Assembly: GCF_039880525.1 (NCBI RefSeq)
Contig: NZ_CP156989.1
Location: forward strand, 1,984,001-2,048,000
Length of the DNA stretch: 64,000 bases
Direction of reading: 5' to 3'
From: Agrococcus sp. ProA11
GTDB lineage: Bacteria; Actinomycetota; Actinomycetes; Actinomycetales; Microbacteriaceae
The notes below the pieces were generated by a model. The model was not told the DNA's origin, searched no databases, and saw only the letters and a list, made by a program, of their open reading frames with translations. Below, piece after piece: positions 4,315-32,373 of this stretch (its first letter is position 1; every line of letters begins with the position of its first letter). A program made the translations under genes and the position numbers.

Positions 4315-5001
4315 TCAGCCCTGGGGTGCGCCGGCGCGGTAGCCGACCCCGCGCACGGTCGTCACGACCACGGGGTTGTCGACATCGCGCTCGACCTTGG
4401 AGCGCAGCCGCTGCACGTGCACGTTCACGAGGCGCGTGTCGGCCTTGTAGTGGTAGCCCCACACCTGCTCCAGCAGCATCTCGCGCGAGAAGACCTGGCT
4501 GGGCTTCGACGCGAGCGTGACGAGCAGCTCGAACTCGAGCGGCGTGAGCGAGATGGGCTCGCCGCCGCGGGTGACCTGGTGGCCGGCGACGTCGATGTCG
4601 AGGTCGGCGACGCGGAGCGTGCCGGTGTCGCCGCTGTGCTGCGGGCGCAGCCGCGTGCGCACGCGCGCGACGAGCTCCTTCGGGTTGAAGGGCTTCACGA
4701 CGTAGTCGTCGGCGCCGGATTCGAGTCCCACGACGATGTCGGTCGGGTCGCCCTTCGCCGTGAGCATGATGATGGGCACGCCGGATTCCGCGCGGATCTC
4801 ATTGCAGATCTGGATGCCGTCCTTGCCGGGCAGCATGAGATCGAGCAGCACCAGGTCCGGCCGCACCTCGTGGAAGCGGTCGACCGCCTCGGCGCCGTCG
4901 GCGCAGTACTCCAGGTCGTAGCCCTCGCCCGCGAGCACGATGCCGATCATCTCGGCGAGCGCCGGGTCGTCATCGACGACGAGGATCGTCTGCTCCGCCA
5001 T
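4315..5001 (-). CDS. mtrA: DNA-binding response regulator MtrA
   Basis: A 228-residue OmpR-family regulator. The receiver domain has the acidic pair in VVDDDP, the phospho-acceptor aspartate in LLDLMLPG (residue 54) and the lysine in LTAKGD. The C-terminal winged helix includes the typical RLRSKVERDVDNP stretch. The ATG at 5001 is preferred over the one at 5016 because GGGAG lies seven bases before it and the length then equals that of well-studied MtrA proteins. MtrA controls peptidoglycan hydrolases, osmotic response and the link between replication and division in actinobacteria. It heads the mtrA-mtrB-lpqB operon. Confidence 0.95.
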   Translation of the reverse strand: MAEQTILVVDDDPALAEMIGIVLAGEGYDLEYCADGAEAVDRFHEVRPDLVLLDLMLPGKDGIQICNEIRAESGVPIIMLTAKGDPTDIVVGLESGADDYVVKPFNPKELVARVRTRLRPQHSGDTGTLRVADLDIDVAGHQVTRGGEPISLTPLEFELLVTLASKPSQVFSREMLLEQVWGYHYKADTRLVNVHVQRLRSKVERDVDNPVVVTTVRGVGYRAGAPQG

Positions 5002-5103
5002 CGGCGCTCCCTTCATCCTGCAGCCGGCATCACCGGGGGCCGCGGTCGCGCGGCTCTCGTCACTGTATCCGAGCGGACCATGCGAGCGGAGCAGGCGGGC
5101 CGA

Positions 5104-6927
<1,824 letters not shown>

Positions 6928-28502: not shown

Positions 28503-30007
28503 TAGAAGAGGCCCTGCGTGGTGCCGGCGTCGACCGTGCCCGCGGGCGCGAGCACGTTCAGCTGCCGCACCTCGTCGACCGTCAGCTCGGGCAGCCGTTC
28601 GACCAGGCCGAGGAAGCGCTCGATCTCCTCGTCGTCGATGATGCCCTGCGCGAGCGTGCGCAGCTTCTGCACGTACTCCGCGCGACCGAAGGGGCGCGCC
28701 CCGGCCGGGTGCGCATCCGCGACGAAGATCTCGTCCTCGACCGTCTCGCCGTCGGTGAGGGTGATGACGATGCGGCCGCCGAACGCCTTCTTGTCCGGGT
28801 CCGGGTCGTGGTAGCGCTCGGTCCAGACCGACTCCTCGACCGTGGTGATCTTGTTCCACAGCTCGACGGTGTCAGGACGCTGGGCCCGCTCGGGCGCGTA
28901 CGAGTCCACGTGGTGCCAGCCGCCATCCTGCAGCGCCACCGCGACGATGTACGGGATCGAGTGGTCGAGGGTCTCGCGCGACGCCGTCGGGTCGTACTTC
29001 TGCGGGTCGTTCGCGCCGGAGCCGATCACGTAGTGCGTGTGGTGGCTCGTGTGCAGCACGATCGACTCGACCCGCTCGGGGTCGCGCAGCTCGGGCCGCT
29101 CGGCGCCGAGCTTGCGCGCCAGGTCGATCCAGGCCTGCGCCTGGTACTCGGCGGAGTGCTCCTTCGTGTACGTGTCGAGGATGCCGCGCTTGGGCTCCCC
29201 GGCCCTCGGCAGCGGCACCGAGTAGGAGCCCTCCCAGCCGTCCAGCAGCCAGGCGATGACGCCGTCCTCGCCCTCGTAGATGGGCACGGGGCTGGTCTGG
29301 CCGCGCATCGCACGGTCGACCGACTCGACGGCCATCTTGCCCGCGAAGGCGGGCGCGTGCGCCTTCCAGGTCGAGATCTCGCCCTTGCGCGACTGGCGGG
29401 TGGCGGTCGTCGTGTGCAGCGCCTGCCCGACGGCCTGGAAGATCGTCTCGGCCTCGAGGCCGAGCATGGTCCCGATGCCGGCGGCCGCCGACGGGCCGAG
29501 GTGGGCGACGTGGTCGATCTTGTGCTTGTGGAGCGAGATCGCGCGCACGAGGTCGACCTGGATCTCGTAGCCGGTCGCGAGCCCGCGCACCAGCGCGCGA
29601 CCGTCGCAGCCGACGTGCTGGGCGACGGCGAGGATCGGCGGGATGTTGTCGGCCGGGTGGGAGTACTCGGCGGCCAGGAAGGTGTCGTGGTAGTCGAGCT
29701 CGCGCACGGCGACGCCGTTCGCCCAGGCCGCCCACTCGGGGCTCACCCGGTCGTCGACGCCGAAGACCGCGGCGCCGGGCTCGAAGGGGTGCCGCTGCGC
29801 CTGCTCGCGCGCCGAGACGACCGGCGCCCGGTTGAGGCTCGCGATGGCAACGGCGGCGTTGTCGATGATGCGGTTCCCGATCATCTCCGCGACCTCCGCC
29901 TCGACCTCGACCGGGTCGACGGCGACCTGTGCGATCTTCCACGCGAGCTGCTCGTCACGGGGTAGGTTCTCGGCGGACTTGCGGGCTCTGACATCGTGCT
30001 GCTGCAT
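28502..30007 (-). CDS. prpD: 2-methylcitrate dehydratase
   Basis: A 501-residue MmgE/PrpD protein that dehydrates 2-methylcitrate to methylaconitate. Signatures include [56 protein letters not shown] and [20 protein letters not shown]. This is the iron-sulfur-free PrpD type. The ATG at 30007 has TAGGCT seven bases upstream. It heads the prpD-prpB-OYE operon; no prpR regulator gene is adjacent. Confidence 0.95.
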
Positions 30008-30014
30008 GGTGCCG

Positions 30015-30020
30015 AGCCTA
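30015..30020 (-). promoter_or_regulatory. Candidate -10 element of prpD
   Basis: TAGGCT on the minus strand, seven bases before the ATG at 30007. Confidence 0.45.
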
Positions 30021-30052
30021 TCCGGCGAGCCTCAACGGACCCTGCTTCGCTC

Positions 30053-30072
30053 GTCGGGCTTCGCGGCCCGAC
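30053..30072 (-). terminator. Short hairpin after the sortase gene
   Basis: GTCGGGC and GCCCGAC around a six-base loop, starting three bases after the sortase stop codon. There is no clear T-run, so it is a weak candidate. Confidence 0.45.
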
Positions 30073-30075
30073 CGC

Positions 30076-30738
30076 CTACGCCGCCTCGACGAGCTTCGCG
30101 AAGACGATCAGGTTGTTCGGGAAGTCAGGGTTGGTGCCGTCGAGGTTGTCGCAGGTGATCAGCCGCAGCTCCGCGTCGGACACCGGGTAGTAGACGGCGC
30201 GGGTCGGGAACGAGCTCTTCGGGAACGACTCGACCCTATAGATCTCGAAGACCGCGACCGATCCGTCTGCGCGGGTGACGCTGACCTCGTCACCGGCCTC
30301 GAGCGCTTCGAGGTTGTAGAAGACGCCGCTCTCGTCCGAGAGCGAGTTGACGTGGCCGAGCAGCACGCTCGCGCCGCGCTCGCCGGGGGTCGGCGAGCCC
30401 GTGTACCAGCTGGCCGGGGAGCCCTCCTCGTCCGGCGGCACCTCGAGCGCACGATCCTCGCGGATGCCGGTCTCGATGAGATCCGCGGTGCGATCGATCG
30501 CCGGGATGCTGACGCTCACGGGCGTCGATGCGGCCATCTCGAGGGTCGCCTGCTCGGACGCTGGCGCGGTCTCCGGTGCGGCGGACGGGGTGGGCCCTGG
30601 CGCGGCGGAGGTGACTGCCGGCGCCGTGGCCGCCATCGGCTCCGCATCGTTCGCGGCGCCACAGGCGGTGAGGGTGAACAGGAGGGCCGCCGCCCCCGCC
30701 GTGAGGCGGAGACGACGGCCCATTCCGTGATGCATCAT
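30076..30738 (-). CDS. Class F sortase
   Basis: A 220-residue protein with an N-terminal lipoprotein-like signal (LTAC near residue 26), an Ala/Pro/Thr-rich linker, and a sortase barrel from about residue 70. The catalytic histidine is in SVLLGHVNS and the cysteine in LRLITCDN. The C-terminal NNLIVFAKL fits class F, although the usual arginine is not obvious. Sortases join surface proteins to the wall or to each other. The CHRD protein encoded 24 bases upstream on the same strand is the likely substrate. Gene order and spacing indicate one operon. Confidence 0.88.
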   Translation of the reverse strand: MMHHGMGRRLRLTAGAAALLFTLTACGAANDAEPMAATAPAVTSAAPGPTPSAAPETAPASEQATLEMAASTPVSVSIPAIDRTADLIETGIREDRALEVPPDEEGSPASWYTGSPTPGERGASVLLGHVNSLSDESGVFYNLEALEAGDEVSVTRADGSVAVFEIYRVESFPKSSFPTRAVYYPVSDAELRLITCDNLDGTNPDFPNNLIVFAKLVEAA

Positions 30739-30762
30739 CGATGCGATCCGTTACTCAGCTGT

Positions 30763-31539
30763 TCAGCTGTCGGTCGCGGTGCGGCGACGGCCGATGAAGT
30801 AGCCGGCAGCTGCGAGGGCAGCGAGGAGGCTGCCACCGAGCGCAACGGCGCCCATCTGCGACTCGGTCGCGCCGAAGCCCGCCGCGGTCACGACCCCGGT
30901 GTCAACGCCACCGGCCGGAGCCATGGCGAGCGCACCGCAGAGCGCCGGGGAGGTTGCCGCGAGCGGCAGCTCGGGAGCCAGGTCGCTCGGCTCCGTCGCA
31001 CCCTCAGGCTGGGTCGCCGGGTCGAGACCGTGCACGACGACAACCGCCGTGCCGCCCTCGAGCGAGTCCATCGTGGCCTGGCTCAGCTGGAAGGTCTCCT
31101 CGTAGGTGATGGTGTCACCGGAGGGTGCAGCCATCAGGTCGAGCGCACCAGCGGGGGTCTTGTCGGCGTCGCCGACCGAGAGGGTCTGGCCGATCTCGCC
31201 ATAGAACGGACCACCCTCGGTGGTGCTGATGATGCCGTCGCCGTTCTCGTCAGCGCTCATCGACGGGCAGGTGCCCTGTGCGCCGATGTGGATGTGCTGC
31301 ACATGCGGGTAGGCGGAGCCGTCGAACTCGGCGGCCAGGCCCGTGGCGTTCACGGTCACGGTGGCCATGTCGCCTTCGACATCCATCCACACCTCGCCGG
31401 ATGCGCCGCTGTTGTTGATCTCGTCGAGCATCGTCGAGTAGGACTCTGCGTGGTCTGCGGCCATCGCGGGCATGGCGCCCATGGTCACGAGGCCGAGCCC
31501 CAGCACGGGTGCAGCGAACAGGATTGACTTCTTCTTCAT
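30763..31539 (-). CDS. CHRD-domain surface protein with sorting-like C-terminus
   Basis: 258 residues from the ATG at 31539, with AGAGG eight bases upstream. The signal peptide is cleaved near residue 27 (AMA-A). The CHRD domain has paired strands and the histidine motifs HVQHIHIGAQG and VVVVHGLDP. The tail has P-A-G-G-V-D-T-G (208-215), a short spacer, one membrane helix (about 231-250) and RRR. No LPXTG is present. With a class F sortase next door, GGVDTG is the plausible replacement motif; this is inference. CHRD function in bacteria is unclear. Confidence 0.85.
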   Translation of the reverse strand: MKKKSILFAAPVLGLGLVTMGAMPAMAADHAESYSTMLDEINNSGASGEVWMDVEGDMATVTVNATGLAAEFDGSAYPHVQHIHIGAQGTCPSMSADENGDGIISTTEGGPFYGEIGQTLSVGDADKTPAGALDLMAAPSGDTITYEETFQLSQATMDSLEGGTAVVVVHGLDPATQPEGATEPSDLAPELPLAATSPALCGALAMAPAGGVDTGVVTAAGFGATESQMGAVALGGSLLAALAAAGYFIGRRRTATDS

Positions 31540-31698
31540 GGGAGAAACCTCTTCCGAAACAATCTCGGGCCCAAGAGTTTTGCGCCCTTCTGTGATGGTC
31601 TTCGGCACGCCGCTGCAGGCGGATTGGACGAGTTCGAGACTCTTCTCGCAAACCGTTCTCGTCCGGGCGACGAACCCCTCCCGATCGCAAGAGAACGG

Positions 31699-32373
31699 AT
31701 GACTCCCATGGCTCGCATGACCTGGATCGGCACCATCGCCATCGCCGCGATGCTCGTGACCGGCTGCGCGGCCACGGCCGCGCCCGCAGAGGAGCCGACG
31801 CCCGCGGCATCCCACACGATGCCCGACGGCACCGTGATGGATGGCGCCGAGCACGGCGAGCACTCCTCCGACGAGACCCACACGATGCCGGACGGCACCG
31901 TGATGGACGGCGCCGAGCACGGCGAGCATGCCTCGAGCGACACCGAGCCATCCGAGGCTGCCGCGATGATCTGCGGCGGCCAGGTGGCGACCGCGGTCGA
32001 GGCGACCTTCCGTCTGGACAGTGCGGTCACGCCGTCGTCCGCCTGGGACGCGCCGATGTTCACCTGCACGTACGAGATCGAGGGCGCACCGCTGGAGCTC
32101 TCGGTGCACGACACGACCGACGTCGCGGCCGGCGAGGAGCACTACGGCGAGCTGCAGCGCACGCTCGACGCCGATGACATCGAGGGGCTCCTCGGCCTCG
32201 GCCTGCCGTCGTTCTCGAACGACGAGGGCATCGTGGCGTTCCTGCGCGACGGCAAGACGCTCGTCGTCGATGCGACGGCCCTGCCGAACGGATTCGCGGG
32301 CGACATGACGCAGGGCGAAGCGGCCTACGCGATCGCGACCGCGGTGCTGGGCTGCTGGGTCGAGCACGACTAG
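31699..32373 (+). CDS. Lipoprotein with tandem His-rich repeat
   Basis: 224 residues from the ATG at 31699; ATG codons at 31708 and 31717 are alternatives. The lipobox is LVTGC (C23). Residues 39-60 and 61-82 are two near-identical 22-residue repeats beginning HTMPDGTVMDGAEHGEH, encoded by a 66-base direct duplication (31813-31878, 31879-31944). Their His, Met, Asp and Glu content suggests metal binding, perhaps copper. The C-terminal domain (about 90-224) holds three cysteines (MICGG, FTCTY, LGCWV) and is not recognised. It diverges from the CHRD/sortase operon. Confidence 0.75.
   Translation: MTPMARMTWIGTIAIAAMLVTGCAATAAPAEEPTPAASHTMPDGTVMDGAEHGEHSSDETHTMPDGTVMDGAEHGEHASSDTEPSEAAAMICGGQVATAVEATFRLDSAVTPSSAWDAPMFTCTYEIEGAPLELSVHDTTDVAAGEEHYGELQRTLDADDIEGLLGLGLPSFSNDEGIVAFLRDGKTLVVDATALPNGFAGDMTQGEAAYAIATAVLGCWVEHD

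Follow-up and report, generated by a model that had tools for sequence, protein, structure and literature searches.

A GVDTG-type C-terminal tail as a putative sorting signal for class F-type sortases in Agrococcus and other actinobacteria

Class F sortases have their kin among enzymes known for cutting LPXTG tags. Among the described systems, SrtE1 of Streptomyces, a class E sortase with LAXTG substrates, shares with the system reported here a non-LPXTG signal cut between Thr and Gly (in our system a putative signal with a predicted cut), a C-terminal helix and a basic tail (PMC5148588). In class E, P4 is still Leu and the enzyme has its Arg; our system has Gly at P4, Val at P3 and Asn in the enzyme. 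For class F itself, a 2026 paper describes the physiological roles as unknown and sets aside two neighbouring tail proteins because they show no known pentapeptide. In the same paper, the Actinoplanes pairs AMIS_11010/SrtF1 and AMIS_36440/SrtF4 resemble ours in combining a signal peptide, a helix, a basic tail, no standard pentapeptide and a class F neighbour, and its authors name AMIS_11010 and AMIS_36440 as possible substrates from genetic context alone, giving no name to their motif (PMC13251363).

The idea of a GVDTG sorting domain is already curated in NCBIfam, as NF058571 (GVDTG_CTERM, "GVDTG sorting domain-containing protein"). In the literature we searched, which lay largely outside subscription journals, neither a GVxTG signal for class F nor a paper on NF058571 came to light; the word GVDTG returned unrelated titles and abstracts only, and the available parts of PMC12445094 and PMC10924467 name no GVxTG-type class F signal. 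Nor could we find in that literature the breadth of the pairing, the two matched variants or the helix-less branch that are set out below.

The window analysed here is a 64,000-nt stretch (G000:C1:1984001-2048000) of the 2.67-Mb single-contig genome of Agrococcus sp. ProA11. By profile search it contains one match to the sortase family PF04203, and the whole genome contains four: a class E sortase at C1:16922, a class C sortase at C1:304378 and two of class F type. The window sortase (220 aa, 30076..30738, minus strand; PF04203 78.8 bits) has its ATG 24 nt past the stop codon of a secreted CHRD/SOD-like partner protein (258 aa, 30763..31539, minus strand). The first-pass annotation had described this pair and its sortase as the only one in the window, and the coordinates, strand and anatomy proved correct. 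A promoter and terminator scan of 29900-31750 detected nothing.

Divergent from the pair lies a Met/His-rich lipoprotein-like gene (31624..32373, plus strand) with two copies of the repeat HTMPDGTVMDGAEHGEH, which is likely metal-binding. This lipoprotein pattern recurs in six of seven related loci (absent from L112). The gene is linked in Agrococcus-type loci, with an equivalent position in the Agrococcus relatives L262 and L263, and Arthrobacter L264 has a different neighbour in its place. Elsewhere in the genome, the class C sortase is preceded by one long ORF of 1301 aa (L006:8-3913; G000:C1:300007-303912), in which two LPXTG-type tails, LPLTGG and LPVTGG, occur with no intervening stop; it would seem to be two pilin genes fused or read through.

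All features of the partner lie on the minus strand. It opens with a signal peptide (residues 1-27, 31459..31539), recognized by eye from MKKK, a hydrophobic core and AMA, followed by a folded domain (residues 31-208, 30916..31449). The putative sorting motif PAGGVDTG (residues 208-215, 30895..30918), with a predicted cut between T214 and G215, is separated by a 14-residue spacer from a C-terminal hydrophobic helix (residues 230-250 by hydropathy, 30790..30852; residues 237-257 in a low-confidence structure model). The basic tail RRRTATDS (residues 251-258, 30766..30789) closes the protein, giving the order LCGALAMAPAGGVDTG-spacer-helix-RRRTATDS. As first reported, the 258-aa sequence contains no LPXTG and has PAGGVDTG in its tail instead.

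The partner has the GVDTG_CTERM architecture of motif, hydrophobic helix and basic end, and NF058571 matches its residues 208-253 over model positions 2-44 of 44, but at 22.2 bits as a protein (E 1.3e-4) and 25.1 bits in the genome search the match stays under the cut-off of 29. Three of four genus mates match at 30.7, 29.8 and 25.6 bits, and the fourth has no match. In an alignment of the partner with five close relatives (A3, six proteins), PAGG[V/A]DTG is otherwise invariant, whereas the spacer varies in length and sequence; among 18 wider relatives the motif reads PxG[GAH][VA]xTG. Because the motif is kept in relatives while the spacer drifts, PAGGVDTG appears to be more than a chance occurrence.

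The CHRD label of the first-pass annotation is a weak one. With an E limit of 10, PF07452 (CHRD) matches every one of the six A3 members, including the window protein, the best E being 9.2e-5, but the window protein scores 18.6 bits against a cut-off of 24.1. Two GVDTG partners of other genomes pass this cut-off (L144 at 59.0 and L111 at 54.3 bits). We built an AlphaFold model of the partner from six sequences, of low confidence (pLDDT 47.5). With it, the best 50 of 444 Foldseek matches at E up to 10 are superoxide dismutases (SODs), their copper chaperone or an SOD-holding complex, with a best E of 8e-4 and one match at E under 0.001. A VIA comparison of residues 31-209 of the same model with SOD residues 2-154 gave a Z of 9.7 and 3.1 A over 116 residues.

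Across the six aligned proteins, H79, H82, H84, C91, H170 and C201 are invariant. We take H82-I-H84, C91, H170 and C201 to follow the order of the SOD copper ligands and disulphide, and the HxH, the VVVHG and the two Cys to be SOD-like. The zinc-loop histidines are missing, with a calcium-loop-like DxNxDG loop (DENGDG) in their place. Even with an E limit of 10, Pfam Sod_Cu gave no match to the six A3 proteins, including the window protein; L224, a CHRD partner of more distant kinship, reaches E 0.009, under the cut-off. PDB sequence searches with the partner returned no SOD match. At this low confidence, the predicted fold of residues 31-208 may resemble Cu,Zn SOD and CHRD, and a copper or superoxide role for the partner would be a guess.

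For the window sortase, class F is the best class model (NF033748, 161 bits, compared to 23.8 bits for class E); it falls 5 bits short of the NF033748 cut-off of 166 and is accordingly called class F-type here, not a full-score member. A lipobox, L-T-A-C, can be read by eye at residues 23-26 (30661..30672, minus strand), and the enzyme is probably lipid-anchored. A lipobox-like pattern ahead of the catalytic domain is present in 91 of the 127 class F sortases collected from the same family (L075-L201), the LTAC of the window included; many class F enzymes therefore look like lipoproteins.

The catalytic residues His129 (30352..30354, minus strand) and Cys196 (30151..30153, minus strand) are conserved in 127/127 of these sortases, and Lys174 (30217..30219, minus strand) is invariant in the same 127 Microbacteriaceae enzymes. 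Asn209 (30112..30114, minus strand) stands where other sortases have the catalytic Arg, as judged by aligning it with the class E and class C enzymes of this genome, which have Arg there; this position is Asn in 126 of the 127 and Ser in one. In an alignment of 25 class F sequences, of which 23 come from the draw across the phylum, the Asn never varies; the Lys is present in at least 90%, not in all. The window enzyme departs from most of the 127 in its Cys-to-Asn distance (13, compared to 14 in 119/127) and in having TCDNL where most have TCGGxFD. A structure model of the sortase (pLDDT 55.6) has 96 PDB matches at E under 0.001, which are sortases, and its quality is insufficient for locating Asn209 or Lys174.

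Asn for Arg in actinobacterial class F sortases is already in print, with a citation of Malik and Kim 2019 (PMC6998099), and we discarded it as a new discovery. In a class A sortase, the Arg (R216) bonds the main-chain carbonyls of Leu at P4 and Pro at P3, and activity is lost when it is replaced by Ala (PMC9520033); in class E models, the Arg bonds the P3 carbonyl (PMC5148588). We infer a connection between the loss of the Arg and the replacement of LP by GV at P4-P3.

We consider it likely that the window sortase is dedicated to one cognate substrate, the partner encoded beside it, with the GVDTG tail as a sorting signal for wall attachment. The partner would be exported and retained through its C-terminal helix, the lipid-anchored class F sortase would cut D-T|G within PAGGVDTG, and the new C-terminal Thr would be joined to an amino group, most likely that of a peptidoglycan precursor. 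GVxTG would then stand where class A has LPXTG and class E has LAXTG. This explanation and the three alternatives weighed against it are mutually exclusive.

The first alternative starts from the same Asn. The class F enzyme could be a processing peptidase, in which a T-G cut made with Asn in place of Arg would release the partner instead of joining it to the wall. The near-universal Asn (126/127) and the loss of activity on changing R216, the class A residue that binds the P4 and P3 carbonyls (PMC9520033), speak for it; against this, the His and Cys are intact in every one of the 127 enzymes, and hydrolysis alone would need no membrane-tethered pair of substrate and enzyme. We regard such a peptidase as improbable.

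Evidence for a sorting signal comes from the distribution of the tail. With class F called at E <= 1e-15, such a sortase is present in 79 of 249 same-family genomes, 36 of which exceed the curated cut-off, for 127 genes from 31 genera. A full-score GVDTG tail occurs in 20 of these genomes, and all 20 have a class F sortase. A draw of 296 genomes across the phylum yielded 60 with class F and 22 with a full-score GVDTG tail, with an overlap of 22/22. The genomes are non-independent, and the Fisher p-values of 1.7e-11 (family) and 1.5e-17 (phylum) say only that the overlap differs from random sampling. In 14 named control genomes, there was a full-score match to neither the GVDTG nor the class F model.

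A class F gene is no more than 1.2 kb away from 19 of the 20 full-score tails in the family (one best tail per genome) and from 22 of the 25 in the phylum; those beyond this distance are G232:C2 (1.39 kb), G410:C3, G524:C21 and G356:C113. Below its cut-off, NF058571 is unspecific: at E 0.01 it finds a match in 110 of the 249 genomes, and many of these lack a class F sortase. The first-pass annotation had pointed to PxGGVxTG tails near actinobacterial class F sortases and proposed their co-occurrence as a check; such tails are real and widespread, and the annotation was right on the pair and, among the genomes sampled, on class F generally. Judged from sequence, the reading of this non-canonical tail as a sorting signal appears well supported, both by co-occurrence and by linkage.

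To describe the motif beside class F genes, we took all 127 family class F loci with 3 kb flanks, and class E and phylum class F loci with 1.5 kb flanks. The strict pattern, P.{0,2}G[GS]?[VIL].[TAS]G, was set before its count yet after the tails had been inspected, its general shape alone coming from the first-pass annotation. It occurs in an upstream ORF at 108/127 loci, at 86/127 together with a membrane helix and a basic end. Among the 3562 other ORFs of the same loci, 37 carry the pattern and one has the pattern with a membrane tail. The 19 misses are mostly spelling variants (GGAQTG, GYLATG, GHADTG, GPVETG, SIPAG). At the class F loci of the 30 best-scoring genomes of the phylum draw, a helix-and-basic tail is found near 27/30 and the strict pattern with a helix at 15/30, with tails such as PRGHVNTGVGG, PAGGVATGQGG and PTGGVETGGG.

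Unlike class F, the 30 top-scoring class E loci from this family, used as a control, include none (0/30) with the pattern and a membrane tail, and four with the bare strict pattern; a looser pattern flags ORFs in 6/30, which by eye are multi-helix or CrgA-like membrane proteins. LPXTG and LAXTG were discarded as candidates for the class F signal: L[PA].TG followed by a membrane tail occurs at 4/127 loci, judged by eye to be chance LAxTG strings inside spacers or helices.

A motif score written after the tails had been seen gives 125 of 127 loci, a purely descriptive count (L086 was picked wrongly, L119 scores slightly too low and L110 runs into the end of its contig), and is also reached by 400 of 3541 other ORFs, three of them with a helix. 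Over these 125 loci, L086 included, this post hoc score finds Gly at P1′ in 125 (Gly being required there), Gly at P4 in 106, Thr at P1 in 75 (Ala in 41, Ser in 9) and Val at P3 in 85 (Ile in 26, Leu in 9, Ala in 5).

The genome itself provides a second pair (L007:3392-4962, equal to G000:C1:1969391-1970961). Its class F-type gene (L007:4204-4962, 117 bits) lies directly behind a DUF4397 protein (L007:3392-4201; PF14344 106 bits) that ends in STPSGVPSGLGG-helix-RPARERS, a PSGVPSG tail, and both class F genes of the genome thus adjoin a P-x-G-(G)-V-x-[T/S]-G tail. NF058571 does not match this DUF4397 tail, and matches some other DUF4397 tails beside class F genes, only under its cut-off. Downstream of the second pair, we noted by eye ORFs resembling an ECF sigma factor and an anti-sigma factor. 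A second weak GVDTG match of the genome, at C1:190922, was discarded, since it is CopC-like by eye and has the helix without the motif.

We placed the P1 label, Thr or Ala/Ser, on a maximum-likelihood tree that comprises 126 sortases (all but L110), with three labels corrected by hand; it changes five times. Over 100 shuffles of the labels, the mean is 38.7 changes and the minimum 31; for within-genus shuffles, the mean is 32.3 and the minimum 27. The deepest split of the tree has non-Thr in 46 of 50 rows on one side and Thr in 73 of 76 on the other. Both P1 kinds are present in 27 of the 79 genomes, and with the variant tracking the sortase tree it is the enzyme, not the host, that the pairing follows. 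Operon co-inheritance alone would equally make motif and sortase clade agree, with or without recognition of the one by the other.

At 23 of the 127 loci the motif, usually GGVQTGGG, has no hydrophobic stretch behind it (threshold 1.5) and is followed by 16-49 residues (median 26). L083 and L117 are borderline members of this set, and L085 may have been truncated, as its match to the tail model continues past a TAG stop. The helix-less state changes five times on the sortase tree. The upstream ORFs concerned, which keep PxGGVQTGGG, include L091, L092, L100, L108, L136 and L101, often with a GH8-like gene intervening; in L091, L136 and L101 a gene for a DUF4397-type protein comes first, then one for a GH8-like glycosidase and then the class F sortase (Pfam on L091: DUF4397 99.9 bits, Glyco_hydro_8 120.6 bits). 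L084 and L090 have the same order, but with the helix. NF058571 does not match the helix-less L091 tail. In L091 and L084, the next ORF resembles polyprenol-phosphate mannosyltransferases by eye.

These loci bear on the second alternative, in which the tail does no more than anchor the partner, which would remain in the membrane while the sortase acts elsewhere, for example on LAXTG substrates. The partner does have a helix and a basic tail, and the genome does have LPXTG-type stretches, beside its class C sortase. A plain anchor fits poorly with a motif that is kept while its spacer drifts, that persists at 23 loci where the helix is missing and whose variant tracks the sortase clade, and no convincing LPXTG or LAXTG tail lies upstream of the 127 class F genes. 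We give this alternative a small chance. That the window sortase is a decayed pseudo-enzyme, as its 161 bits against a cut-off of 166 could suggest, is hardly credible given its open frame, the retention of His129, Cys196, Lys174 and Asn209 in six named relatives of 56-70% identity (two Agrococcus and four Arthrobacter loci) and the partner gene upstream in five of the six, all save L266. In L266 (Arthrobacter sp. H14), a truncated second class F copy lies just upstream of the intact one, at about 4451-5693, and no partner gene was seen beside this truncated copy.

Several observations count against the tail as a sorting signal. The partner tail and the sortase each fall under their curated cut-offs, and the tail model loses specificity below its own. 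In Propionibacterium acnes, the sortase that carries the class F label cleaves LPQTGE (PMC7451113), and Actinoplanes with all four class F sortases deleted showed no phenotype (PMC13251363). The PDB chain quoted as class F is 5UUS (PMC9520033). Its match to the window sortase family is remote (19-20 bits), and it reads ...CHPQFSNAERM, with an Arg after the Cys. From its sequence, 5UUS may differ in kind, and the label "class F" may cover two kinds of enzyme.

A standard sorting signal requires a helix to hold the substrate. The helix-less partners are either no sortase substrates, or their enzyme works without the helix, and these 23 loci are a real puzzle that the standard mechanism leaves unexplained. 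We put forward a broader proposal, as a tentative one that we think more apt to fail than to hold: actinobacterial class F sortases could make up one large group in which each enzyme has a private substrate, the sequence read is [P]xG(G)[VI]x[T/A/S]|G, and both the LP of the signal and the Arg that reads it have been given up. One branch, often with a GH8 gene in between, would have lost the helix and kept the motif, so that a soluble secreted protein would be caught and maybe attached to a polysaccharide or another unusual acceptor.

For the window pair, we return to the likely reading of a dedicated sortase with one cognate substrate. The recurrence of GVDTG-type pairing in other actinobacteria makes the target of class F testable. 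A class-wide signal with two matched P1 variants (T; A/S) would indicate which peptides to test and which proteins to seek, and it might give a sortase orthogonal to the LPXTG enzymes for protein ligation.
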